The translations under genes were made by a program, and so were the position numbers. From Acetobacteraceae bacterium (GTDB taxonomy: Bacteria > Pseudomonadota > Alphaproteobacteria > Acetobacterales > Acetobacteraceae), in assembly GCA_009693865.1 (NCBI GenBank), contig SHWL01000015.1:1-47544 (forward strand): 47,544 nt of DNA, given 5' to 3'. Shown piece by piece: positions 10,846 through 47,544 of the stretch; position 1 is the stretch's first letter; each line of letters starts with the position of its first letter. The notes below the pieces were generated by a model. The model was not told where the DNA came from and searched no databases. It saw only the letters and a list, made by a program, of their open reading frames with translations.

Positions 10846-10862
10846 CCGCCCGCCGGTTCGCC

Positions 10863-10921
10863 GGACCTCGTGATTTGTCCGGCCGGATTGCGGCGAGGTA
10901 AACAAGCGCGCTAAAGAGGCC
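10863..10921 (+). promoter_or_regulatory. SAM-II riboswitch (metA/metZ leader type)
   Basis: The segment carries the hallmark pieces of the alphaproteobacterial SAM-II aptamer: a P1 helix CCTCG (10866-10870) with CGAGG (10894-10898), a loop starting TGATTTG, and after P1 the conserved TAAACAAG followed by GCTAAAGAGG. TTGT in the loop (10874-10877) can pair with ACAA (10902-10905), the expected pseudoknot. SAM-II RNAs sense S-adenosylmethionine and lower expression of methionine genes in Alphaproteobacteria. The next gene is metZ, the classic target. A further hairpin, GCCCGT (10930-10935) with ACGGGC (10951-10956), lies between aptamer and gene and may belong to the expression platform. Confidence 0.88.
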
Positions 10922-11006
10922 AGCGAGATGCCCGTATGTGACCGAATATCACGGGCCTTAAGCTGCTTCACGGCCGGGCCAACGTGACAGGAAAGGCCCA
11001 GGCGGA

Positions 11007-21847: not shown

Positions 21848-21943
21848 TGGCGGAAGAGAGCAGGAGTCGAACCTACCCAGGACCGCTCGGCGGCCCCAAC
21901 CGGGTTTGAAGTCCGGCCGGCCCACCGGGGCCGCTTCTCCTCC
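21848..21943 (-). tRNA. selC: tRNA-Sec (anticodon UCA)
   Basis: The minus strand from 21943 reads GGAGGAGA at the 5' end, which pairs with the 3' acceptor strand before GCCA as 8 bp with one G-U, the long acceptor stem typical of selenocysteine tRNA. The anticodon loop is CUUCAAA with UCA (complement of 21907-21909). It is followed by a long variable arm rich in G and C and by a T arm with GGTTCGACTCC. The length of 96 nt with encoded CCA is close to the 95 nt of E. coli selC. The gene lies 19 bp after the selA stop in the same direction, so it is probably cotranscribed. This tRNA decodes UGA as selenocysteine together with SelB. Confidence 0.95.
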
Positions 21944-21962: not shown

Positions 21963-23324
21963 TCAGCAGGTTTTGGGAAGCTGTTCGAGGAAAGCGGGTT
22001 CGTCGCCCGACTCCAGGCATCGGCAGTCCAGCCAAAGCCGGTCATGTCGGATGCGGCCGATCACCGGACGGGCCAAACCCCGCAACTGCGTCGCGAGCTC
22101 ATCAAGCCCCTTGCCGCCGAAGCACACGGCGGCCGAGGGCAGCAAATCGACCGGCAGCGCACCAGAGCCGATCTGGCTGTGGCAGGCCTCGACGGTGACC
22201 TCGCGGTCCGGCCAGGCGGCGCGCAGCGGTCCGGCGAGCCGCGATGCGGTGGCATGAATGTCGGATTCGGGGCGGGTGAGAAGCCGGAGCGCGGGCAACC
22301 GTTCGGCCAGGCGATCTGGGTTGAGATACAATCGCAAGACCATCTCCAATGCCGCCAACCGCCCCTTATCGAGCCGTAGTGCCCGTTTCAGGGGGTTCGC
22401 ATTGATCTGTCCGATCAGATCGGCGCGTCCGACGATCAGACCGGCCTGGGGTCCACCCAACAACTTATCGCCGGAAAAGGTCACCACATCGGCGCCATCC
22501 GCGAGAACACCCCGCGGTGTTGGCTCGTGGGGTAAACCCCAGCGTTCGAGGTCGATCAGGCTGCCGCTGCCGAGATCCTCGATCAGTGGCAGGTTGGCGC
22601 CATGGGCGATGGTGGCCAGGTCGCGCGTGGGGACGGCCGCCGTGAACCCTATAATCGCGTAATTGGCCTGATGCACGCGCAGCAACGCCGCGGTCCCGGG
22701 CCCGATCGCGGACTGGTAATCGCGCGGATGGGTGCGATTGGTGGTGCCGACTTCGCGAAGAACCGCACCCGATCGGCTCATGATATCGGGGACCCGGAAG
22801 GCACCGCCGATCTCGATCAGTTCGCCGCGGGAGACCGGTACCTCCTTGCCCAGAGCCAGGGTATTCAAGACCAGCAGGACAGCGGCGGCGTTGTTGTTCA
22901 CGACGGTGGCAGCCTCGGCGCCTGTCAGCTCCAGCAACAAGCCGGAGATATGGTCGTCGCGTTCGCCACGGCGGCCCGTGGTCAGGTCGTATTCAAGGTT
23001 GGTGGCGCTTCGATAGGCGGTCGCGGCGGCCTCTGCCGCCTCAGGCGGCAAGGGCGCGCGACCGAGGTTGGTATGCAGAACGGTGCCGGTCAGATTGAAA
23101 ACCGGGCGTTGCGAGACGGTGGCACGACGCGCGAGGGCATCCGCCGTTTCGTCCAGAATGTCCACGGCGTTCAGTCCAAAACGCCGGGCCTCCCGGTGAG
23201 CGGTCACGACGTCACGGAGAACCTCAATGACGGCGCTTCGACCAAAGCGCGCGATCAAGGCATCCGCTTCGGGTGCGCGGGCCAGAGCGTCAAGAGAGGG
23301 TAACGGGCTTGGCGATTTGCTCAT
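21963..23324 (-). CDS. selA: L-seryl-tRNA(Sec) selenium transferase
   Basis: SelA is the bacterial PLP enzyme that turns seryl-tRNA(Sec) into selenocysteyl-tRNA(Sec) using selenophosphate. The 453-residue product has the family N-terminal RNA-binding segment, then [19 protein letters not shown] (76-94), [40 protein letters not shown] and the PLP lysine Lys287 in [14 protein letters not shown]. The C-terminal domain ends in the usual region. The ATG at 23324 gives the expected length. tRNA-Sec follows 19 bp downstream. The partner genes selB and selD are not in the window. A likely client is the UGA-containing methyltransferase at 45072. Confidence 0.96.
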
Positions 23325-36636: not shown

Positions 36637-36762
36637 TGATAGCAGATCGCCGCGCGGTCTCACTTGCCCCGGCCCGATGTTACCGGGTCCGGGATGAGCC
36701 GGACCGCGCGAGGCATTCATTTTGGCGATTGGTACGACACCACGGCGGGAGGGCCAATCGGC

Positions 36763-38361
36763 ATGGCGGACTGGAATGACGGCTACGTCTCCGACGTGGC
36801 CTACGTCAGTGGTTATCACGCGGAAACGGCCCCGGTTTGGCTGGCCACCACGTTGACTTTGCTGGGCGTGGCCCCGCCAGATATCTCGCGTCCCTTTCGG
36901 TACGCCGATCTCGGGTGCGGCAACGGGGTCACCCCGCTCGTCGTCGCGGCGGCGATGCCGCACGCGGAGGTTTGGGGATTCGATTTCAACCCCGCCCATG
37001 TCGAAGCTGGGCGGGACGTCGCCCGCCGCGCCGGCCTGACCAATGTCCGTTTCGAGGAAGCCTCGTTCGACGGCCTCGCGAGCCTCGCCCCGGCGGATCT
37101 GCCTATGTTCGAATACATATCGGCGCATGGCGTGCTGAGCTGGATTTCGCTCGAAAATCGGCGCCGTCTGTTCACCGTGATCGGCCAGCGCCTGGCGCCC
37201 GGAGGCATCGTCTCCGCCAGTTACAATGTTGGCACCGGATGGACCGGCATGCGTCCCGTCCGGACGCTGATGCGATTGTTGGTGGAGGCAAGCCCGGATC
37301 GGACCGACCTCGCGGCGGCCGGGATGTTCGCCATGCTGGAGAAAATCAAGGGCGCGGGCGCCGCGATGTTCGCGACCCATCCCGCCCTTAACGCCCGCAT
37401 CGAGATGTTTCGCACCCAGGATCCGCGTTACGTCGCCCATGAGCTGCTGAACCGCGATTGGCATCCGCTCATGTTCCCCGAGGTCGCCGCCGCGATGGCG
37501 GGGATCAAGTGCGACTATGTCGGTGGCGCGACGTTGCATGACAACATCGTGGGCCTCACGGTGCCCGCCGGGCTTCAGGAGATGTTCGGCCAGTCGCGCG
37601 AGACTCGGTCGCGGGAAATGGTGCGGGATCTTGCCTGCGGAGCGAGTTTCCGCCGCGATATGTATCAGCGAGGCGCGCGGCGCATGTCCCCGATGGAGCA
37701 TGGGCGGCGCATGAACGCGATGAGGCTGACCCGCACGGCCCGGCCGGTTCCGGAGACGATCGTGCTGAACACGTCTCTGGGCCAGTTCACCCCGGATCAG
37801 ACGCTTTACCGGGCGGTCCTCGATATTTTGAACGACGGTCCCATGACGATCGGCGAGGTTCGCGGCCACGCGTCGTTGTCCGGCTGGATTCCCGCTGCGG
37901 TGCCCGAAGCGCTGGGGATGCTGTTGCAGGCCGGGTTTGTGGCGCCTTTGGCGCCGGAACCGGTTGCGACCGAGGCAGTGGCGGCCTCGGCGCGTTTGAA
38001 CCAGGTCCATGCCGCGTTGTTCGACGACGGGTACGACCGGCCGTTCCTGGTCTGCCCAGCTTTGGGGGCGGCGCAGGGGGCCGATCCGCTGGACATTCTG
38101 GCGCTGGACGAAATGCGGACCCAGGGGACCATCGACGAGGCTCCTTTGATCGAGGCGATCGCGGCCCGGGTCGCACGCTATGGGCGAGGTTTTCAAAAGG
38201 AGGGGAAGGCGATCGAGGACCCGGCGGAGATGCGGGCGCATGTGACGACGATGGTGCGGGACTTGCTGTCGCGGCGTCTGCCGGCGATGCGCCGGTTCGG
38301 GGTGCTGGGTTCCGGCCACCCGGGACCGCGCCTGGCGGATCGCGCGGTCCAGGCAAGCTGA
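36763..38361 (+). CDS. Class I methyltransferase with C-terminal regulatory domain, copy 1
   Basis: This 532-residue protein has an N-terminal SAM-dependent methyltransferase domain (motif I ADLGCGNG at 48-55, then AEVWGFDFNPAHVEAG) and a central region of the MethyTransf_Reg type (SWISLENRRRLFTVIGQRL, ALYHDN-like TLHDNIVGLTV), with a C-terminal helical part. The class has no firmly known substrate. I chose the ATG at 36763 because it matches the well-supported start of copy 3 without gaps; an ATG at 36694 would add 23 unconserved residues. It is the first of three tandem paralogues and likely shares a promoter with them. Confidence 0.82.
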   Translation: MADWNDGYVSDVAYVSGYHAETAPVWLATTLTLLGVAPPDISRPFRYADLGCGNGVTPLVVAAAMPHAEVWGFDFNPAHVEAGRDVARRAGLTNVRFEEASFDGLASLAPADLPMFEYISAHGVLSWISLENRRRLFTVIGQRLAPGGIVSASYNVGTGWTGMRPVRTLMRLLVEASPDRTDLAAAGMFAMLEKIKGAGAAMFATHPALNARIEMFRTQDPRYVAHELLNRDWHPLMFPEVAAAMAGIKCDYVGGATLHDNIVGLTVPAGLQEMFGQSRETRSREMVRDLACGASFRRDMYQRGARRMSPMEHGRRMNAMRLTRTARPVPETIVLNTSLGQFTPDQTLYRAVLDILNDGPMTIGEVRGHASLSGWIPAAVPEALGMLLQAGFVAPLAPEPVATEAVAASARLNQVHAALFDDGYDRPFLVCPALGAAQGADPLDILALDEMRTQGTIDEAPLIEAIAARVARYGRGFQKEGKAIEDPAEMRAHVTTMVRDLLSRRLPAMRRFGVLGSGHPGPRLADRAVQAS

Positions 38362-38472
38362 GTTGGAGCGGGCGATCGTCACCAATCCGAAGCATTGGCC
38401 CGCGGCGTTGGAGGGCGTGGCCTCGGCGGTCACGCGCGCGCTCACGATCATGTCGCGAACGGACCGCTGACG

Positions 38473-40035
38473 ATGGCGAGCTGGGACGATGGTTACGTCA
38501 CCGATGTCAATTATATCGCGGGTTTCCATCCCGATACCTTGCCGGTCTGGATCGCCACGTGCGCTGCGTTGTTCGGATATACCGCGCCGGACGTGACCCG
38601 GCCCTTCCGCTATGCCGACCTGGGGTGCGGCGATGGCGTCACCGCGCTGATCCTGGCCGCGACGATGCCTCATGCGGAAGTCTGGGGTTTCGATTTCAAC
38701 CCGGCCCATATCGAGGCGGGACGCGAGATCGCCCGCCGCGCCGGCCTGACCAATATCCACTTCGAGGAAGCTTCGTTCGACCGTCTCGCGCGCCTGGCCC
38801 AGGGGGCGTTGCCGATGTTCGATTACATGGCGGCCCATGGGGTGCTGACCTGGATTTCACGGGAAAATCGCCGTCATTTATTTTCCGTGATTGGCCAGCG
38901 CCTGGCGCCGGGCGGGATCGCCCAGTTGGGCTACAACGTCAGCACCGGGTGGTCCGGCATGCGGGTCATTTCGACGCTGTTACGGCAAATCGCCGCCGCC
39001 AGCCCTGAACGATCCGATATCGCACTGGCTGGCGCCTTTGGGACTCTTGAGAAGATTCGGGACACCGGTGCGGCAATATTCCGCTCTTACCCCGAACTCA
39101 ACGAGCGGCTTGTCCAAATCAAAGGGCAACACTGGCGTTACGTCACGCACGAATTGTTGGCCCGGCACTGGCAGCCAGAGCAATTCGCGCGGGTCGCGAC
39201 AGCCATGTCGGCGATCAAGTGCGATTATATCTGCGACTCGATGCTACATTCCAACCTGACCGGTCTCATCATGCCAGAAGAAGCGTATGAGATCGTCGAA
39301 TCAATCTCGGACGTCCGGCTGCGGCAGACAGTGCGCGACATTGCCGGCGCGGTGGACTTCCGTCGCGATCTCTATCAACGGGGCGGGCGGCGGATGTCCC
39401 AGGCGGAACAAGCACGCCGAACCGATGCGATCACGCTGGTACGACGGTTCCGGCCCGTGCCAGAAACCATGACGAACGAACCCCTGCTTCGCCGCGTGGC
39501 GGTCAGCGAAACCGATTATCGAACACTTTTTCGTCTCCTGGACGAAGGTCCAACCACGATCGGCGCACTGCGGCGCCACGAAGCTTTGTCCGGCTGGAAC
39601 GGTCAAATGTTGTTCGTGGCGATCACGGTACTTCTGAGCACGGCCTACGTCGCCCCAATGCTGCCCGAGCCGCCGGCGAACGCCGCCGTCGCCGCATGCG
39701 CGCGACTGAATCGGGTTCACGCCGCCCTGTTCGACGAAGCTCGGGAGCGGCCTTATTTGGCCCTCCCGGCGTTGGGTTCGGCCTGGCAAGCCGGCCGTCC
39801 CGCGGTTCTCGCGGTCGACGAACTGCTGTCCGGCGGCGGTCACGAGGAGCAGGGTCTGACCGAGGCTGTTCTACGGCGTCTCCGGGAGGTCAAGGAAATC
39901 GCGGAACGGGATGCTCAATCGGGCGTGGCCCGCGAGCAGGTGACGGCGGCTGTCCGGGACATGGTGCGGCATCATCTCCCGGTCTACCGCCGTCTGGGTG
40001 GGCTCGGTATGGCCGAACCCGAGGCGGACGTTTAG
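38473..40035 (+). CDS. Class I methyltransferase with C-terminal regulatory domain, copy 2
   Basis: The 520-residue product is the closest relative of copy 1: the first 60 residues align without gaps (MASWDDGYVTDVNYIAGFHP; motif I ADLGCGDG at 48-55; AEVWGFDFNPAHIEAGREI). The central part has TWISRENRRHLFSVIGQRL and SMLHSNLTGLIM, matching copy 1 position by position. The C-terminal half diverges more. The frame is open from 38395, but the ATG at 38473 corresponds to the family start. The gap to copy 1 is 111 bp. Substrate unknown; MethyTransf_Reg-type proteins occur in many proteobacteria. Confidence 0.82.
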   Translation: MASWDDGYVTDVNYIAGFHPDTLPVWIATCAALFGYTAPDVTRPFRYADLGCGDGVTALILAATMPHAEVWGFDFNPAHIEAGREIARRAGLTNIHFEEASFDRLARLAQGALPMFDYMAAHGVLTWISRENRRHLFSVIGQRLAPGGIAQLGYNVSTGWSGMRVISTLLRQIAAASPERSDIALAGAFGTLEKIRDTGAAIFRSYPELNERLVQIKGQHWRYVTHELLARHWQPEQFARVATAMSAIKCDYICDSMLHSNLTGLIMPEEAYEIVESISDVRLRQTVRDIAGAVDFRRDLYQRGGRRMSQAEQARRTDAITLVRRFRPVPETMTNEPLLRRVAVSETDYRTLFRLLDEGPTTIGALRRHEALSGWNGQMLFVAITVLLSTAYVAPMLPEPPANAAVAACARLNRVHAALFDEARERPYLALPALGSAWQAGRPAVLAVDELLSGGGHEEQGLTEAVLRRLREVKEIAERDAQSGVAREQVTAAVRDMVRHHLPVYRRLGGLGMAEPEADV

Positions 40036-40134
40036 CATGGAACGGCGCCCGATCGCGGCGGCCTCCGCCTGCGCGGGTCACGAGATGGCCCCGGCAACAA
40101 CAGATCGACCGCTATGACCAGGGAGGATTGACCG

Positions 40135-41757
40135 ATGCCCGGCTGGAATGACGGCGCGATCACCGATATCGCGGCAACTCCGCGGTTTTCCCGGGAAACC
40201 ACGCCTATCTGGCTGGCCACCACCTGCGCCTTGCTTGGTTTCCGCGCACCGTCGCTGACGCGGCCGTTCCGCTACGCCGACCTCGGCTGCGGCGCCGGGT
40301 TCGGCGCGCTGACGGTCGCCGCGACCTGCCCCCGCGCCGAGGTGTGGGGCTTCGACTTCAACCCCGCGAACATCGAATTCGCGCGCGATCTCGCCGAACA
40401 GGCGGGCCTCACCAACATCCGGTTCATGGAAACCTCGTTCGAGACCCTCGCCGCGATGCCACCGGACTCGCTGCCCGAATTCGACTTCATGATCGCGGAA
40501 CACGTTCTGAGCGTGATCTCGCCGGAGAACCAGCGTCACATCCAGACCATCATTGGACGCCAACTTCGGCCCGGCGGTCTCGCGTATCTCGGCTATGATA
40601 CCGACACCGGCTGGACCGAATTCGAACCGATCCAGACGTTGATGCGGATGTTGTTCGAGGCTGGAACGGAGACCAGCGAGTTCGCGATCCCGGACATCTT
40701 CGCCTATCTCGACCGGCTGAACACCGGCGGCGCGCTTTACTTCAAACGCAATCCCATCCTGGAGCAGCGGCTGGCGTCCATCCGGCGTCTGCCGGCTGCC
40801 GATCTCGCGCTTCGCTGGCTCAATCAGGACTGGCACGCGTTGATGTTCGCCGATGTCGCCGACGCCATGGAGGAGGTCAAATGCGACTTCCTCGGGCGAG
40901 CGACGCTACATGAAAACATTCCGGCGGCGTCGGTACCGGCGGGGATGCTGCCGTTGCTGGAGGAGGCGGCGTCGATCCGGATCAAGGAAACCATGCAGGA
41001 CGTCGCGGCGGGGACGCCATATCGCCGGGACATTTACCGCCGCGGCCTTACGTTTGTGCCGGTCGCGGCGCACCATGCCCAGTTGGACGCCATCACAGTC
41101 GCGGCCATGGCCGATGGGCCTCTGATGGTGCCAACCTGGCAGGGACCGGCCCCCGCCGATCCGGCCGTGTACGATCCCTTGACCGAAGCGCTTCGCGAAG
41201 GCCGCCTCAGCCTTGCCAAAGCCCGCACCCTGGGCGCGTTGGCCGGCGCGCCGGTTGAAGACGCGGCCAACGCGATGGCCATGCTGATTGCCGCGGGCCG
41301 CGCGCATCCGGTGATGCCTGACCTGGTCGCGCGCGAGGCCACTGCCAGGGTCTCGCGCTTCAATGACGCGATCATCGACGCGATCACACGAGGGGAAGAC
41401 CTCGGTTACCTCGTCTCCCCGGTCCTTGGGTCCGCGATCCCCGCCAGTCCGCTGGAGGCGTTGACGATCGGCGCTATCGCCTATGGCCAAAGCGTGGACG
41501 ACCTGGACGGATTGACCGGCGGGGTCCTGATGGCGATGCGGCGAGGCGGACGCGCGGTGACGCGGGACGGCGCGCCGATCGAGGACGAGGCGGAGGCCCG
41601 ATCGGTTCTGCGTGCAGTGGTCACGCAAATCCTGGAACACCGTGTGCCCTTGTTCCGCGCTTTGGGCGTGCTGCCAGCCGGATTGGCGGCGAGCTCAACA
41701 CACCAGCTCGCCATGCAGGGCAATGTCGAAGCCCCCGCGCATGTGGCGGTCGAATGA
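40135..41757 (+). CDS. Class I methyltransferase with C-terminal regulatory domain, copy 3
   Basis: The 540-residue product is the most diverged of the three paralogues, yet keeps motif I (ADLGCGAG at 48-55), AEVWGFDFNPANIEFARDL, and the central SVISPENQRHIQTIIGRQL and ATLHENIPAASV stretches. A clear GGGAGG site 8-13 nt upstream makes the ATG at 40135 certain and sets the start of the other copies. It lies 99 bp after copy 2. Sequence differences at the motif I glycine loop and in the C-terminal half suggest a different acceptor from copies 1 and 2. It is followed by a UbiH-family gene. Confidence 0.85.
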   Translation: MPGWNDGAITDIAATPRFSRETTPIWLATTCALLGFRAPSLTRPFRYADLGCGAGFGALTVAATCPRAEVWGFDFNPANIEFARDLAEQAGLTNIRFMETSFETLAAMPPDSLPEFDFMIAEHVLSVISPENQRHIQTIIGRQLRPGGLAYLGYDTDTGWTEFEPIQTLMRMLFEAGTETSEFAIPDIFAYLDRLNTGGALYFKRNPILEQRLASIRRLPAADLALRWLNQDWHALMFADVADAMEEVKCDFLGRATLHENIPAASVPAGMLPLLEEAASIRIKETMQDVAAGTPYRRDIYRRGLTFVPVAAHHAQLDAITVAAMADGPLMVPTWQGPAPADPAVYDPLTEALREGRLSLAKARTLGALAGAPVEDAANAMAMLIAAGRAHPVMPDLVAREATARVSRFNDAIIDAITRGEDLGYLVSPVLGSAIPASPLEALTIGAIAYGQSVDDLDGLTGGVLMAMRRGGRAVTRDGAPIEDEAEARSVLRAVVTQILEHRVPLFRALGVLPAGLAASSTHQLAMQGNVEAPAHVAVE

Positions 41758-41872
41758 CCTGGACGCTCGGGGGGATGGCCTGCCCGTTTGTTGTGCAGGC
41801 GGTCTGGATGGCGGATAGATGATGGCGCTCCCTGCCGTCCGCGCGATGGCCGGGAGGGAGGGAGACCCCACC

Positions 41873-43099
41873 ATGCCTGAAGAACTTCGCGCCGATGTCG
41901 TCGTGGTAGGCGCGGGTCCGGTTGGCGGGACTCTGGCGTGCCGTCTGGCCGCGGCTGGCGTCGTCACTGCGATTGTGGACCGCGCCGCGCTACCCCCGAT
42001 GGAGCATCCGGTGTTCGATGGCCGGGCTTACGCGATCGCCGCCGGATCGCGCGCACTGCTGATGGATGCGGGGTTGTGGGACCGGCTGCCAGACCTGCCC
42101 AATCCGATCCTGGACATTCGTGTCACCGACGGCCTCGTGGGACGGCGGGCATCCCGCCTGCACCTGCATTTCAACCATCAGGAGGCCGGCGGCGAGCCGG
42201 GCCCGTTCGGTTGGATGGTGGAGGCACGCGGCCTGCGCCGGGCGCTGAACGCGCATGTGCGGGATTTGCCTGACCTGCGCGTATTCGCGCCCGCCGAGGC
42301 CTCCGTCGAACGCTCCGTGGAAGGTGCGCGGGTGGGGATCGTTGGCGGCCCCTCGATCGCGTGCCGTCTGGTGATCGCGGCCGAAGGCCGGCAGTCGCCC
42401 TTGCGAGAGGCCGCCGGAATTCGGGTGACGCGGATTGGCTACGATCAGACCGGCATCGTTTGCGCCATCAGTCATGAGTTGCCGCATAACAACCTGGCGC
42501 TGGAGCACTTTCTTCCGTCCGGCCCCTTCGCGGTGCTGCCGATGGCGCCCAGCGTGGATGCGGAGGAAGGGGGGGCGCCGAATGTCTCGGCCGTGGTGTG
42601 GACTGAGCGAACGCGGATCGCCGAGACGATTCTCGGTTTGGACGACCGCCGCTTCGCCCGCGAAATCCGCCGTCGCCTCGGCGATTACCTGGGCGACGTC
42701 CGGACGGTGGGGCGGCGCTGGAATTACCCATTGTCGGCGATGCTGGCGCATCGGTACGTCGACACACGGCTCGCGCTGGCGGGGGACGCGGCGCATGCCA
42801 TCCATCCGGTCGCGGGACAGGGACTCAACCTCGGGTTTCGGGATGCGATCGCGCTGGCTGGGCTGGTAATCGAGGCAAAGGCGGCCGGCGAGGATGTCGG
42901 GTCTCCGGGCTTGCTCGCGCGGTATCAGCGGGCGCGGCGGCCGGATAATCTGGCGATGCTGGCGATGACGGATGGGCTGGACCGGCTGTTCAGCACGAAT
43001 AATCCGGCGGCCCGGCTTGCGCGGGATCTGGGGATCGCGGCGGTGGATCGGGCGGGACCGTTGAAACGGGTGTTCATGCGAAGGGCGATGGGGGCGTAG
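41873..43099 (+). CDS. FAD-dependent monooxygenase, UbiH/UbiF/VisC family
   Basis: The 408-residue flavoprotein has the FAD-binding motif VVGAGPVGGTLACRLAAAG at the N-terminus and the second FAD motif LALAGDAAHAIHPVAGQGLNLGFRDA near 305-330, the hallmark of ubiquinone-ring hydroxylases UbiH, UbiF, UbiI and relatives. It probably hydroxylates the ubiquinone precursor ring; which position cannot be told. The ATG at 41873 has a long GGGAGGGAGGGAGA stretch upstream, better than the tandem ATG at 41819. It follows the methyltransferase array by 115 bp in the same direction, and might be cotranscribed. Confidence 0.9.
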   Translation: MPEELRADVVVVGAGPVGGTLACRLAAAGVVTAIVDRAALPPMEHPVFDGRAYAIAAGSRALLMDAGLWDRLPDLPNPILDIRVTDGLVGRRASRLHLHFNHQEAGGEPGPFGWMVEARGLRRALNAHVRDLPDLRVFAPAEASVERSVEGARVGIVGGPSIACRLVIAAEGRQSPLREAAGIRVTRIGYDQTGIVCAISHELPHNNLALEHFLPSGPFAVLPMAPSVDAEEGGAPNVSAVVWTERTRIAETILGLDDRRFAREIRRRLGDYLGDVRTVGRRWNYPLSAMLAHRYVDTRLALAGDAAHAIHPVAGQGLNLGFRDAIALAGLVIEAKAAGEDVGSPGLLARYQRARRPDNLAMLAMTDGLDRLFSTNNPAARLARDLGIAAVDRAGPLKRVFMRRAMGA

Positions 43100-43101
43100 A
43101 C

Positions 43102-44491
43102 CTACCGGAATCGTACAAATGCGGAACGATTTGCCAACCGCCATCCTTCCCGCATCCGGTCCAGGCGGAGGAGGCCATGATGCATGGTTTCAGGCCCTGG
43201 CGGCCGGTATCCGCTGGACGTCCGGCCGGACCAGCCGCCCAACCGTGCGACGATCCAAACGAACCAGGCGAGTGTTGTTTCATCGTGCGGGTTCCTGAGC
43301 TTTTCCGTACGACCCTCGAGTTTGACGTTGATGGCACGCAGGGCCGGCATGTCGGCGGGGTCGGCGGCATCGGTGACCGGCTGGCCGGTGCTTCCGTCCC
43401 GGACCATGGCAAGCTGCATCGATCTGACCGCCGCGATCAGACCGATCATTGCCAGTTTGGTGAAGCACGCGGCTGTTTCCAGCTCTCAGGCGGTCCGCTT
43501 TCATCGAACGGAACACCTGCTCAATGATCCATCGCATGCGATACCAGGCCACAATCTGGCGGGCCTGATCCACAGTGATCACCGCGTACGTGGTCAACAG
43601 CCGCCAATGGACCGGTTCGGCGCCGTTTGGCGGATCGATTTCCTGGACATCGACAACCCACAGCGGGACGGTTCTGGCCTCGTCTTTGTCCGGCGTCTTC
43701 TCCGGCCGGACCAGGGTCGCGGGACCGAAGCGAGGTGCTACCGCGGCCTTACGCGGGGAGTGTTTGCCCTTCGCGGGCACGTCGATCGTTTCGCGGGCCT
43801 GTTCGGGCAGGGCGGCGCAATATGCCGGCAGGCAGCCGCCCTCGGCCAGGACGCGAGGCTGCGAGGAGCGGATCAACACATGCACGTTGGCGGGGCGGTT
43901 GGCCATCAGGTGGAAGATGTCGCCTTCGCGATCGCATGTGGCTGTTATGATTTCCGCGTTCGTGAGACAGCTACCGGTCTTGCTCGTGGCCTCGAGCCAG
44001 CGGTACGATTCCTTGGCGTCCGCCGCGCGTTTTTGTGGGTTTTCACCTCCTTCGCGCTGGCGGTTTCCGCTGTGCTGATGCGGGCGCGGTTCATGACGAT
44101 ACAGTCGATCAGGCCGCCAATGCCGCCGATCGCCGCGTCAACCGCCAGGACCGGATGAAGGAACAGGCCGGGATGGGTGGCCGTCGCGTCCCATCCCGAA
44201 GCCGCGCTTGTTCTCCGTCTGTGTCGGAAACAGCACGTCGGTGGTGTCCATGACCGCCAGGATGTAGCGGCCGCTGGCACGCTGGTTGGTCTGACGCCCG
44301 GCGGTAACCAGCAACTCGTGCGAACTCACCGCCGGGTTGGCCAGGAAGTTGCCAAAGCGGATGGCCTGGTTCCGGTCCTCGGCCAGCCGGTGAAGGCAAA
44401 GGGTCCGCTTGCTCTGGACAGCGTTCAGCAAGATCGCGCCAGGATCGGCACGCTTTTTATGTCCGAACCCTCCAAGCGATACCTGTGCCAT
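43102..44491 (-). pseudogene. IS4 family transposase, broken by several frameshifts
   Basis: The reading phase switches three times but the pieces line up as one IS4-family transposase. The N-terminus from 44491 reads MAQVSLGGFGHKKRA and NAVQSKRTLCLHRLAEDRNQ; near 44180 it moves to another frame with GLFLHPVLAVDAAIGGIGGL; near 44030 it shifts again to DAKESYRWLEATSK, TATCDREGDIFHLMANRPAN and the DDE-type C-terminal YRMRWIIEQVFRSMK; near 43490 a last shift leads to FTKLAMIGLIAAVRSMQLA and the end GWRLANRSAFVRFR. All expected parts are present, so the element is complete in length but inactive. Terminal inverted repeats were not identified. Confidence 0.85.
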
Positions 44492-44661
44492 GCGACGATC
44501 TCCTGTTTCCTGACCGATGCGGGCATCGATTCGAAGAACGAAGGGATTCGCAATTCATTCCGCCGTTGTACGACAACGGTAGGGTCGGAAACGTTGATCC
44601 GGTCATTCATGTCCGCGGCTTTGGCTGACTCAGGGGTCGATCTTAGAACCGGGATCACCGT

Positions 44662-44853
44662 TCAGGTATCGGGCGCGGGGACCAGCATCCCGGAACCAAG
44701 TGCCACCGCGCCTTTGGTCCTTGGCCACATAAGGCTGGGGTACTTGGCAACAACCCGGCGCGCCTCGCGCAACAGGTTCTCCGGCTTGAACACGGATGGC
44801 GAGGCATACCGCCTGGCGGCTAAAATGGCCTGCCGCTGTTCTGCCTTACTCAT
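44662..44853 (-). pseudogene. Remnant of a gene cut by the IS element
   Basis: The minus-strand frame from the ATG at 44853 begins MSKAEQRQAILAARRYASPS then VFKPENLLREARR, which looks like the start of a real conserved protein (I cannot name its family safely). After about 33 residues the sequence loses this character (VVAKYPSLMWPRTKG) and ends at 44662, close to the decayed transposase. The likely reading is an N-terminal fragment of a gene interrupted by insertion. It could also be a small intact gene; the evidence is the change of sequence character and the neighbouring element. Confidence 0.35.
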
Positions 44854-45071
44854 TGCTGCTCCGATTTCTGGCGCTCGTCGATCGAGAATTCACCGGTCAC
44901 GGTTCTACCGCCGCCCCGCGCAAGGACAAGCGGTGGCGCGTCATCCGCGTACCGGTTACCCTTGCCGGTGACCCGGTTAAGGCATACTTCCGCAGGTCAG
45001 TTGGACCAGGGAAACCGCTTGGGTGGTCTGGCGGTACCAGCCGGCGAAAACTGGACAAGGGGGAGACGCGC

Positions 45072-45845
45072 ATGAGTACCGATACAGCCGTTGATGCCGA
45101 AGCCCTGCGGGAAGAGGTCAAGAGCAAATACCGCGAGGTCGCGACCAATCCGCATGGAACCTTTCATTTCCACACGGGCCGTTATCTCGCGAGGCGTCTC
45201 GGATACGACGACGGCCTGGTTGGATCGTTACCCGACGTGGCGGTCGAGTCATTCGCCGGCGTCGCGAATCCGTTCTCGCTGCGGCCACTTTCGACAGGGG
45301 AACGCGTGGTCGATGTCGGATCAGGGGCTGGTTTCGACTCGTTCATCGCGGCTCGTCAGGTCGGCCCGGCCGGCCGGGTGATTGGCGTGGATATGACGGA
45401 AGAGATGCTGTCGAAGTCCCGTTCCACGGCGGTGCGGTTGGGTTTCGCCAACGTCGAGTTCCGCCAAGGACTGGCGGAGAGTTTGCCGGTCGAGGCTGGT
45501 TGGGCCGACGCGGTCATCAGCAACGGGGTGATCAACCTCTGCGCCGATAAGCGGGAGGTCTTCACCGAAATCCATCGTGTTCTCCGGCCGGGCGGCCACC
45601 TCCAATTCGCGGACATCGCGAATGGGCAGACGGTGCCCGAGGCGGCGATCAACAACATCGATCTTTGGACGGCGTGAATCGCTGGCGGACTGCCGTGTGC
45701 GGCCTGGAAGCAAGTGCTTGAAGAAATCGGGTTTGTCGATGTGACCATCGGATCGCCGATCGACACCTTTCAGGGTGCCAGCGGCGAAAAGAACGCGCGA
45801 AGATTTGAGGTTTTCGGCTATCCCTTCCTCGCCCGGAAGCCATAG
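45072..45845 (+). CDS. ArsM-like SAM-dependent methyltransferase, probable selenoprotein (UGA = Sec202)
   Basis: The ATG at 45072 has GGGGGAGA upstream. The 257-codon frame has methyltransferase motif I VVDVGSGAGFDSF (79-91), VGPAGRVIGVDMTEEML and VLRPGGHLQFADIA, all matching arsenite methyltransferases (ArsM). Codon 202 is TGA (45675-45677) within LWTA-[UGA]-IAGGLPCAAW, exactly where ArsM has its conserved Cys in a G/A-C-x-A/S-G motif. Reading TGA as selenocysteine continues with WKQVLEEIGFVDVTIG and a family-like tail to TAG at 45843-45845. The other ArsM cysteine in ISNC-V-NL is Gly152 here, and Cys209 lies seven residues after the Sec. The window also encodes selA and tRNA-Sec. Arsenic or another thiol-reactive substrate is possible; the true substrate is inferred, not shown. 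The alternative is a nonsense mutation. Confidence 0.82.
45678..45711 (+). promoter_or_regulatory. Candidate bacterial SECIS element
   Basis: Immediately after the UGA a hairpin can form: GCCG (45692-45695), loop UGUG, CGGC (45700-45703), with a G in the loop about 20 nt after the UGA, within the usual bacterial range. Outer pairing GCT (45681-45683) with AGC (45709-45711) may extend it. Bacterial SECIS elements vary, so this is a plausible candidate only; SelB binding would need to be tested. Confidence 0.5.
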
Positions 45846-45942
45846 AAAAGACAATGAAGCCCCCGGGGCCGGCGGCTGCCCAGGCCTCCGGTTCAACCGG
45901 CAACTGAGCCAGCAGGATCGAGCGCCTCGCAAGGAGCCATCC

Positions 45943-46776
45943 TTGACCGAAACTGTACTTGCCGCTGAGCCGGTGATTCGGCTTGGCTGTTTCCTCGGCA
46001 TGTCGATTGCGATGGTGCTCTTGGAAGTACTGGCCCCTCGCCGGCCCCGGGCGATCGGCCGCCTGATCCGCTGGCCCAGCAATTTCGGGGTGGCTGTACT
46101 GGACACGCTCGCGGTGCGCCTGCTGTTTCCGCTTGCCGGCGTCGGCATGGCCTTTCTCGCGCAAACCAATGGATGGGGTCTGTGCAACACTCTGCCAGTG
46201 CCGGTGTGGCTGGCGGCACCGGCCGCGGCGATCCTGCTCGATCTGGCGATCTATGCTCAGCACGTGGCCTTCCACGCGGTGCCGGTGCTGTGGCGGCTGC
46301 ATCGCATGCACCACGCCGATCTGGAATTCGACGTAACGACCGGGCTGCGCTTCCACCCAATCGAAATCCTCCTGTCGATGGGCATCAAACTCACCGCCGT
46401 CACGGCGCTCGGTGCGCCGCCGTCCGCGGTGCTGATGTTTGAAGTCGCACTGAACGCCGGCTCGCTGTTCAACCACGGGAACGTCCGTCTTCCGCTCAGG
46501 TTCGATCGGTTGGTACGTCTGGTCTTCGTGACGCCCGACATGCATCGCGTGCACCACTCCATGGATTGGCTGGAAACCAACAGCAATTTTGGCTTTAACC
46601 TGCCCTGGTGGGATCATCTGTTCGGCACATACCGCGCGCAGCCGGCAGCCGGGCACGCGCGCATGACGCTTGGCGTTGACCGCTTCCGCGATCCGCGTGA
46701 GCTCCGGCTGGATCGCATGTTGACGCAGCCGTTCCGCGACGATCCGCCCATTATTCCCGGAAGTGCCAATGGCTGA
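45943..46776 (+). CDS. Fatty acid hydroxylase/sterol desaturase superfamily membrane protein
   Basis: The 277-residue integral membrane protein has the eight-histidine di-iron pattern of the superfamily: H107-x3-H111, H120-x2-HH124 in RLHRMHHADLEFD, His138 in GLRFHP, His178 in SLFNHGN and H201-x2-HH205 in DMHRVHHSMDW. It hydroxylates or desaturates a lipid, sterol-like compound or hydrocarbon chain. The start is TTG at 45943, supported by AAGGAG six bases upstream; no in-frame ATG lies nearby. It follows the selenoprotein gene by about 100 bp in the same direction, and may be cotranscribed. The exact substrate is unknown. Confidence 0.88.
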   Translation: MTETVLAAEPVIRLGCFLGMSIAMVLLEVLAPRRPRAIGRLIRWPSNFGVAVLDTLAVRLLFPLAGVGMAFLAQTNGWGLCNTLPVPVWLAAPAAAILLDLAIYAQHVAFHAVPVLWRLHRMHHADLEFDVTTGLRFHPIEILLSMGIKLTAVTALGAPPSAVLMFEVALNAGSLFNHGNVRLPLRFDRLVRLVFVTPDMHRVHHSMDWLETNSNFGFNLPWWDHLFGTYRAQPAAGHARMTLGVDRFRDPRELRLDRMLTQPFRDDPPIIPGSANG

Positions 46777-46851
46777 TTTCCGGCGATCTTCCAGGCACGA
46801 CCACCCTGGGCAATCGCGGGTTTGATTCCACCCAAGCCTTTCCATATCTCC

Positions 46852-47006
46852 ATGGACATGGAGAAATCCGCGGCACTTATCGCCCTATCCGCGCTGGCTC
46901 GGGTGTCGCGTCTCGATATCTACCGGCTGCTGGTGTCACAGGCGGCGATGGTTTGCCGGCCGGCCATATCGGCGGCCAACCCGGCTTGCCGTCCGCGACA
47001 CTTGCC
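46852..47006 (+). pseudogene. ArsR family regulator, N-terminal fragment with frameshift
   Basis: The ATG at 46852 reads MDMEKSAALIALSALARVSR and LDIYRLLV, a good ArsR-family N-terminus. Right after it a +1 shift is needed to continue with GGDGLPAGHIGG and LPSATLAF, the usual turn into the recognition helix, before everything breaks near 47006 where a transposase fragment begins. The gene is therefore truncated and frameshifted. Loss of an arsenic- or metal-type regulator next to an ArsM-like methyltransferase is notable. Confidence 0.65.
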
Positions 47007-47395
47007 TTCTGACCACGTCGAATGAAATCGTCCGGCTGCAACGCGTGCTCCGCGGGGACGGCACGGAAATCCGGATTTATTGTCATCCCGAGGGCCGCGG
47101 GGCCAAGGAAACCGCGATCAACGAACGTTTCGCGACCGGTTTCGAGGCCGGCCTCGCCAAACTCGACGCCGGTCTCAGCAAGCCACGCGGGCAGAAAAAG
47201 CTGGCGGAGATCCAGCAGCGGATCGGACGGCTGAAAGAAAAGAGCCGCGGCATCGGTCAGCACTACGAGGTCACCGTCATCCCGGATGAGACCGCAAAGC
47301 TGGCCGCGTCGATCACCTGGACCAAAACCCCGGTCGAGGGCTCGAAGCTGACCCATCCCGGCGTCTGTTGCCCACGCAGTAACGAAATCACCTGG
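47007..47395 (+). pseudogene. IS1634-type transposase fragment
   Basis: An internal fragment of a DDE transposase, read as LQRVLRGDGTEIRIYCHPEG, AINERFATGFEAGLAKLDAG, KKLAEIQQRIGRLKEK and GSKLTHPGVCCPRSNEITW. This resembles the middle of IS1634-family transposases (KEXAMXXRF-type and THPGVYxLRSN motifs). Both ends are missing: it starts at the ArsR break and stops near 47395, where the next element begins. The family name is from memory of the motifs, not a search. Confidence 0.6.
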
Positions 47396-47471
47396 CCCTC
47401 TGTGCCAATGACAGTGAGACATCTACCCCCCGGGAGTTTAGACCCTGAGGTGCTGAAGGATCGTCTTTCTC

Positions 47472-47544
47472 ATGCCCATGCTCGACACAGAAACCCATGC
47501 CGGGGCGGGTGCCGCCTCGAACGAAGGCCGTAGGCCGCCGGTCG
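47472..47544 (+). CDS. Start of an IS3-type transposase OrfA, cut by the window edge
   Basis: The ATG at 47472 reads MPMLDTETHAGAGAASNEGR and RPPV before the window ends, resembling the N-terminal extension of IS3-family OrfA proteins that precedes their helix-turn-helix. GAAGGA lies upstream. The element's left end may be near 47401, where the IS1634 fragment stops and the sequence begins TGTGCCAATGACAG. The assignment is tentative because only 24 codons are visible. Confidence 0.45.
   Translation, partial: MPMLDTETHAGAGAASNEGRRPPV

Follow-up and report, generated by a model that had tools for sequence, protein, structure and literature searches.

A probable single-domain selenoprotein methyltransferase related to ArsM in an Acetobacteraceae genome

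Selenoprotein methyltransferases related to ArsM are an already known kind of protein, in print since 2008, when the GOS survey, in its relevant passage, named a selenoprotein arsenite S-adenosylmethyltransferase (PRK11873; PMC2398784). An excerpt of a 2016 survey counts 41 selenoprotein arsenite methyltransferases in 39 organisms (PMC5029168), and a passage of a 2026 review gives the motif as UxxG, includes fusion forms, and places the protein above the heading 'Predicted with high confidence' (PMC13188914). Portions of two further papers list it as well (PMC7435645, PMC9312934). The original prediction for the locus described here had mentioned selenocysteine (Sec) methyltransferases in selenoproteome surveys, but could not cite a match for this gene; the 2008 survey supplies a precedent for the kind, in a set that may or may not extend to this subfamily.

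The window (the whole stretch of DNA that was analysed, 47,544 nucleotides from an Acetobacteraceae bacterium) contains a gene that very probably encodes a single-domain SAM methyltransferase in which UGA codon 202 is read as Sec by way of SelA, SelB, SelD and tRNA-Sec, with a SECIS-like hairpin just downstream. The gene presents a puzzle: of the three arsenic-ligand positions an ArsM-type enzyme has retained one, with Sec in it, and given up the two others. Standard annotation cuts the enzyme at residue 201 and so misses both the Sec and the last part of the fold. The features of the locus are as follows.

45072..45845, + strand: SAM-dependent methyltransferase gene, 257 residues with Sec202 (Pfam Methyltransf_31, 4.9e-31; 80 relatives aligned)
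45261..45263, + strand: Val codon 64, at the Cys72 position of solved ArsM (V64 in 80/81)
45525..45527, + strand: Gly codon 152, at the Cys174 position of solved ArsM (G152 in 81/81)
45540..45542, + strand: Cys codon 157, a family cysteine (Cys in 76/81)
45675..45677, + strand: TGA probably read as Sec, residue 202 (TGA/TAG/TGC = 74/3/3 in 80 relatives; aligns with Cys224 of solved ArsM)
45687..45705, + strand: SECIS-like hairpin, with 7 pairs in the family register and an A-C mismatch in the window copy, loop CGUGU (5 nt), 16 nt from TGA to loop
45696..45698, + strand: Cys codon 209, possible partner of Sec202 (Cys in 70/81, Arg in 7/81)
21848..21943, - strand: tRNA-Sec, anticodon UCA (ARAGORN; Rfam RF01852, 70.4 bits)
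21978..23303, - strand: selA, Sec synthase, matched stretch (TIGR00474, 555.7 bits)
43280..43906, - strand: transposase remnant, on the upstream side of the methyltransferase gene (DDE_Tnp_1, 2.5e-6)

The reading frame and codon 202

The frame runs from an ATG at 45072 through its sole in-frame TGA and 55 more sense codons to a TAG at 45843-45845, confirming the extent of read-through originally proposed. The read-through product matches the class I SAM methyltransferases, and it is very likely that the protein is a methyltransferase. By itself, the open 55-codon run is weak evidence for Sec, and because a stop-free run of this length is expected in about 21% of random sequences of the same composition, the evidence for read-through has to come from homology. 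A tblastn search found 324 relatives in genome contigs, and all counts given here refer to the closest 80 of the 324, or to 81 family members when the window gene is added; the alignment display holds 29 of the 80 relatives and six outgroup proteins. All 80 relatives can be aligned both before and after codon 202, which is TGA in 74, TAG in three and TGC in three. This is what characterizes a bacterial selenoprotein gene: a UGA within the frame that lines up with Cys or UGA in relatives, with conserved sequence on both sides. Divergence between the window gene and the 80 relatives at codon positions 1, 2 and 3 is 0.230, 0.183 and 0.569 before the TGA and 0.257, 0.179 and 0.573 after it; coding constraint therefore persists past the TGA.

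The relatives with TGA at codon 202 span Pseudomonadota, Actinomycetota and Myxococcota. Of those with TAG (L031, L048 and L054), one is from a Modestobacter genome and two are from Blastococcus; the three form one clade in the tree (100/99). Those with TGC come from one Nitriliruptoraceae MAG and two Glycomyces. In the three TAG genes of these Geodermatophilaceae, TAG is also the final stop, so that UAG would be read as Sec and as stop in the same gene. Could the TGA be an error of sequencing or assembly at 45675? The window's genome is a draft in 209 contigs, 80.9% complete, but TGA stands at the same codon in 74 of the 80 relatives, on other contigs, and such an error is extremely improbable.

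An AlphaFold model built from 36 sequences (mean pLDDT 94.2) is well ordered in the segment past residue 202, with a helix at 209-219 and strands at 222-226 and 247-255. A stop at 202 would therefore take away part of the fold, which in the model is completed by the 55 residues past the Sec.

Selenocysteine machinery and the downstream hairpin

The presence of selA and tRNA-Sec(UCA) in the window had been noted from the start. Outside the window, the same genome carries selB (G000:C9, 388.7 bits) and selD (G000:C56, 312.4 bits), so that all four components found with bacterial selenoproteins are present. When 12 genomes were searched (six with the TGA form, the window's included, three with TAG and three with TGC), selB was above the cut-off in 9/9 TGA or TAG genomes versus 0/3 TGC genomes; in one case (G009) the match alone reaches 241.2 against a cut-off of 242.25, and passes only with neighbouring stretches added. 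The RF01852 cut-off discriminates poorly, being exceeded by 12/12 genomes and 5/14 controls, and a tRNA-Sec was counted only above 60 bits with a UCA or CUA anticodon by ARAGORN, or at E 1e-10. The anticodon is UCA in all six TGA genomes and CUA in all three TAG genomes. (ARAGORN calls the CUA tRNAs tRNA-Pyl, but Rfam scores them as tRNA-Sec at 65.8-66.9 bits.) In the two Glycomyces the best match of the tRNA-Sec search is a tRNA-Ser; the third TGC genome (L096) has a tRNA-Sec(UCA), with no selB over the cut-off. A second tRNA-Sec survey took in 50 more loci from 49 genomes, all with the TGA form, so that 61 of the 80 loci were covered in total; with E 1e-10 as the threshold, the tRNA was detected in 39 of these 49 genomes versus 2 of 14 control genomes. 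The ten TGA-form genomes with none at this threshold comprise nine titled MAG and a bin.

Codon 202 tracks the anticodon of tRNA-Sec, UGA going with UCA and UAG with CUA, and it encodes Cys in three genomes with no selB over the cut-off, which makes the comparative case for Sec in this methyltransferase family a clean one. The CUA tRNA-Sec of Geodermatophilaceae has been described before, with formate dehydrogenase, UGSC and AhpC as the UAG selenoproteins; the passages of that paper on these selenoproteins do not name the methyltransferase (PMC5330540). In the window's own genome formate dehydrogenase, an enzyme that usually draws on the Sec machinery, seems to be made without UGA-encoded Sec, as no in-frame stop was found in its Fdh-alpha match (G000:C170:712-2736).

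How else could the codon be read? If the TGA were a genuine stop, the protein would end after 201 residues and the downstream frame would be a remnant, as the standard code and the one-in-five chance of such an open run would permit. This is most improbable, given the similar divergence on the two sides of the TGA, its presence in 74 of the 80 relatives across the three groups named above, and the pairing of TAG with a CUA tRNA-Sec and of TGC with the lack of selB over the cut-off. Decoding as tryptophan, or by general suppression, is scarcely conceivable: nothing was found in its favour, where another residue stands at this position it is Cys (3/80 relatives and the six outgroup enzymes) and not once Trp, the genomes with a CUA tRNA-Sec have TAG instead of TGA, and 45 of the 81 family genes use TGA as their final stop. 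Plain stop, tryptophan and sequencing error were all rejected. Sec at residue 202 is very likely on these comparative grounds, and the proposal of a probable selenoprotein has thus gained the support of relatives alignable beyond the codon and of a complete decoding apparatus.

The SECIS-like hairpin downstream of codon 202 is likely, but does not amount to proof. In the bSECIS model, as given in a passage of the 2026 review, the loop has 3-9 nt with G in the first two positions, the upper stem has 4-16 bp, the distance from the UGA is 16-37 nt, and the MFE is at most -7.5 kcal/mol (PMC13188914). The window's loop, its 4-bp upper stem, its spacing and a 40-nt fold of -11.3 kcal/mol, which includes the upper stem and loop, fall within these limits; the 19-nt core, which has the mismatch, falls outside, with -3.1 kcal/mol in the register of the family and -6.1 when folded at its optimum. 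Longer window folds prefer another hairpin, RNAalifold picked a different helix, and none of ten folds was markedly more stable than its own shuffles (z-scores -0.76 to 0.95).

Across 52 of the 81 sequences (49 distinct), 94.8% of cells in the hairpin are paired, versus 17.2-44.0% when the register is slid by 1-3 columns. Five measures were compared with shuffles of this 52-sequence set. None of 500 shuffles attained the covariation score or the number of cells altered on both sides (11), but two of the five measures were not above shuffles: 242/500 matched the 2 pairs with changes on both sides, and 500/500 matched the 4 further pair types. The covariation consists of few events. At the pair formed by base 3 of codon 207 and base 2 of codon 210, 76 of 78 Sec-coded genes are paired (56 G-C, 19 U-A and 1 G-U) and two are not. 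The tree places all 19 U-A genes, and no others, in a single clade (99/93), so that they represent one double change. A second compensatory change, from C-G to G-C at another pair, occurred in L057, which brings the compensatory changes to two.

TGA genes keep 7, 6 or 5 of the seven pairs (54, 18 and 3 genes, respectively) and TAG genes keep 6, while the TGC genes keep 3-4, and the hairpin is degraded in these forms. The loop is CGUGU or CGUGC in 70/75 TGA genes. At the same place the three TAG genes and four TGA genes read CCCGU, and four of these seven (L031, L048, L075 and L081) fold with the loop shifted by two bases. In the family register, the 19-nt core reaches -7.5 kcal/mol in 54/75 TGA genes and 0/3 TAG genes.

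Arsenic-ligand positions, gene neighbours and possible substrates

The best solved structures in a Foldseek search with the model are ArsM 4fr0, 6cx6 and 5evj (TM 0.67-0.70 by query length for 4fr0 and 6cx6), so that the ArsM fold and the SAM methyltransferase domain are both present. The three arsenic-binding cysteines of C. merolae ArsM are not. With position numbers counted by hand from the alignment, Cys72, Cys174 and Cys224 of solved ArsM stand opposite Val64, Gly152 and Sec202. PDB titles of the ArsM structures name C72A and C224A mutants, and Cys174 we take to be an arsenic ligand as well. The original prediction was correct in placing the Sec at a conserved arsenic-binding cysteine and in pointing to Gly152 at another, but the further changed ligand, Val64, had gone unnoticed. 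Because the Cys72 and Cys174 positions are both replaced, the three-thiol arsenite site expected of an ArsM-like enzyme is absent, with Sec202 as the only ligand position kept. A pairing of Sec202 with Cys209, also proposed, is possible but not universal, Cys209 being missing in 11 of the 81 family members. In AS3MT, according to an excerpt, arsenite is held by three cysteines, methylarsenite by two and dimethylarsenite by one (PMC3877260). With one ligand position the classical arsenite site is thus missing, unless Cys157 or Cys209 substitutes.

When was the arsenic site lost? Three Cys-bearing proteins from the same phylum (L122-L124) also have neither Cys72 nor Cys174, and position 202 is Cys in them. 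Because they branch beside the family (joint group 100/99, family itself 91/77, in a midpoint-rooted tree with one long-branch row), they suggest, without proof, that the site may have been lost before Cys changed to Sec.

A survey of gene neighbourhoods covered 80 loci, with flanks of unequal length, and window positions 39001-47544. The largest clusters consisted of copies of the gene and of shadow frames, and the 25 largest were taken after removing those mostly overlapping the gene. No fixed neighbourhood was found in the 80 loci and the window flank. Recurrent neighbours among the 80 loci are of the ArsR-rhodanese type (14), the metallo-beta-lactamase/rhodanese type (9), MFS (9) and the DsrE type (8), with domains checked on single members only (L031, L039, L054) and the DsrE type barely reaching the cut-off (22.7 bits); a selA-like neighbour was recognised by eye at 5/80 loci. 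The recurrent set points to sulfur chemistry, in a minority pattern absent from the window flank (39001-47544).

Two loci have an operon-like arrangement. At L031:5318-9890, ArsR-rhodanese, Sec methyltransferase, DsrE, metallo-beta-lactamase/rhodanese and MFS transporter genes follow one another in this order; at L039:3318-6747 the order is Sec methyltransferase, metallo-beta-lactamase/rhodanese and MFS, with a putative ArsR-rhodanese regulator just upstream.

The window gene itself has the transposase remnant and a fatty acid hydroxylase gene (45937-46776) as neighbours. Among 200 genomes sampled from the order, the gene was found at E 1e-60 only in the window's own genome, though 21 of these 200 genomes have selB, among them all four sampled from the genus. 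This distribution suggests horizontal gain; losses would look alike. Elsewhere in the window are a SAM_alpha riboswitch (10857-10935, + strand; Rfam RF00521, 58.8 bits) and three tandem frames of 540-565 residues (36664-41757, + strand) that look methyltransferase-related, each being a weak methyltransferase match.

What, then, does the enzyme methylate? Arsenite is doubtful as a substrate, because the three-thiol site is absent. A true arsenite methyltransferase would have Sec in place of Cys224 and an alternative As(III) site made of Sec202 with Cys157 and/or Cys209. The ArsM folds at the head of the structure search, a PRK11873 match of 215.1 bits, a UxxG motif identical to that listed for the selenoprotein arsenite methyltransferase and the presence of Cys157 in 76 of 81 members are in its favour, but the score is under the 263-bit cut-off, two ligand positions are Val and Gly in virtually the whole family, and Cys209 is not constant. 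The ArsR-type neighbour, moreover, has a rhodanese domain in the tested members (L031 and L054), and no ars operon was recognised by eye among the 25 largest neighbour clusters. An arsenite methyltransferase of this kind is accordingly unlikely.

A sulfur, selenium or metalloid substrate bound by the Sec is suggested by the rhodanese, DsrE and metallo-beta-lactamase/rhodanese genes that lie near the gene in a minority of relatives. With UGA 202 decoded by the Sec machinery, the residue would sit where Cys224 of ArsM holds arsenic; its selenolate may bind a soft substrate next to SAM, whether sulfide or persulfide, selenide or a metalloid, and the bound substrate would then be methylated. Tentatively, one may go further and imagine a distinct subfamily of Sec methyltransferases that is done with arsenic, in which Sec202 alone would hold sulfide, persulfide or selenide for methylation, in concert with sulfur carriers of the rhodanese type and an ArsR-rhodanese regulator, and in part of which the Sec codon would have shifted from UGA to UAG along with the tRNA-Sec.

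Comparison with described methyltransferases

In the open-licence literature searched, so far as its accessible passages go, no description was found of the loss of two arsenic ligands or of UAG forms. Solved ArsM (4fr0, 6cx6, 5evj) has the fold in common with the window protein, and its Cys224 aligns with residue 202; the window protein differs in having Val64 and Gly152 for Cys72 and Cys174, in having the predicted Sec for Cys, and in being without the longer C-terminal part of the solved chains (377-387 residues).

The four nearest NCBIfam models are PRK11873 and three built for selenoprotein fusions that include a methyltransferase. The latter, ArsM_AhpD_UU (NF041537; 221.7 of 510 bits), MTase_UXPK_star (NF047649; 209.6 of 460) and ArsM_DUF2284_UU (NF041536; 205.4 of 575), are the nearest curated selenoprotein models, matching at 205-222 bits over residues 5-227 and all below their cut-offs. 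They describe fusions with two or three Sec, whereas the window protein has one domain and one Sec: the fusion profiles were matched only to about position 228, and a second domain (AhpD, DUF2284 or UXPK) is lacking. The single-Cys methyltransferases L122-L124 have the FAGV and SNG motifs in common with the window protein (hence no Cys72 or Cys174), but carry Cys rather than Sec at 202 and continue at the C-terminus for about 150 further residues, which look hydrophobic by eye.

The selenoprotein PRK11873/NF008823 is, like the protein described here, an ArsM-related methyltransferase with Sec in a UxxG motif, which in the window reads U-I-A-G. From this described form the window protein is set apart by its score below the curated cut-off and by having, in place of two of the three arsenic ligands, the valine and glycine that its own family conserves.
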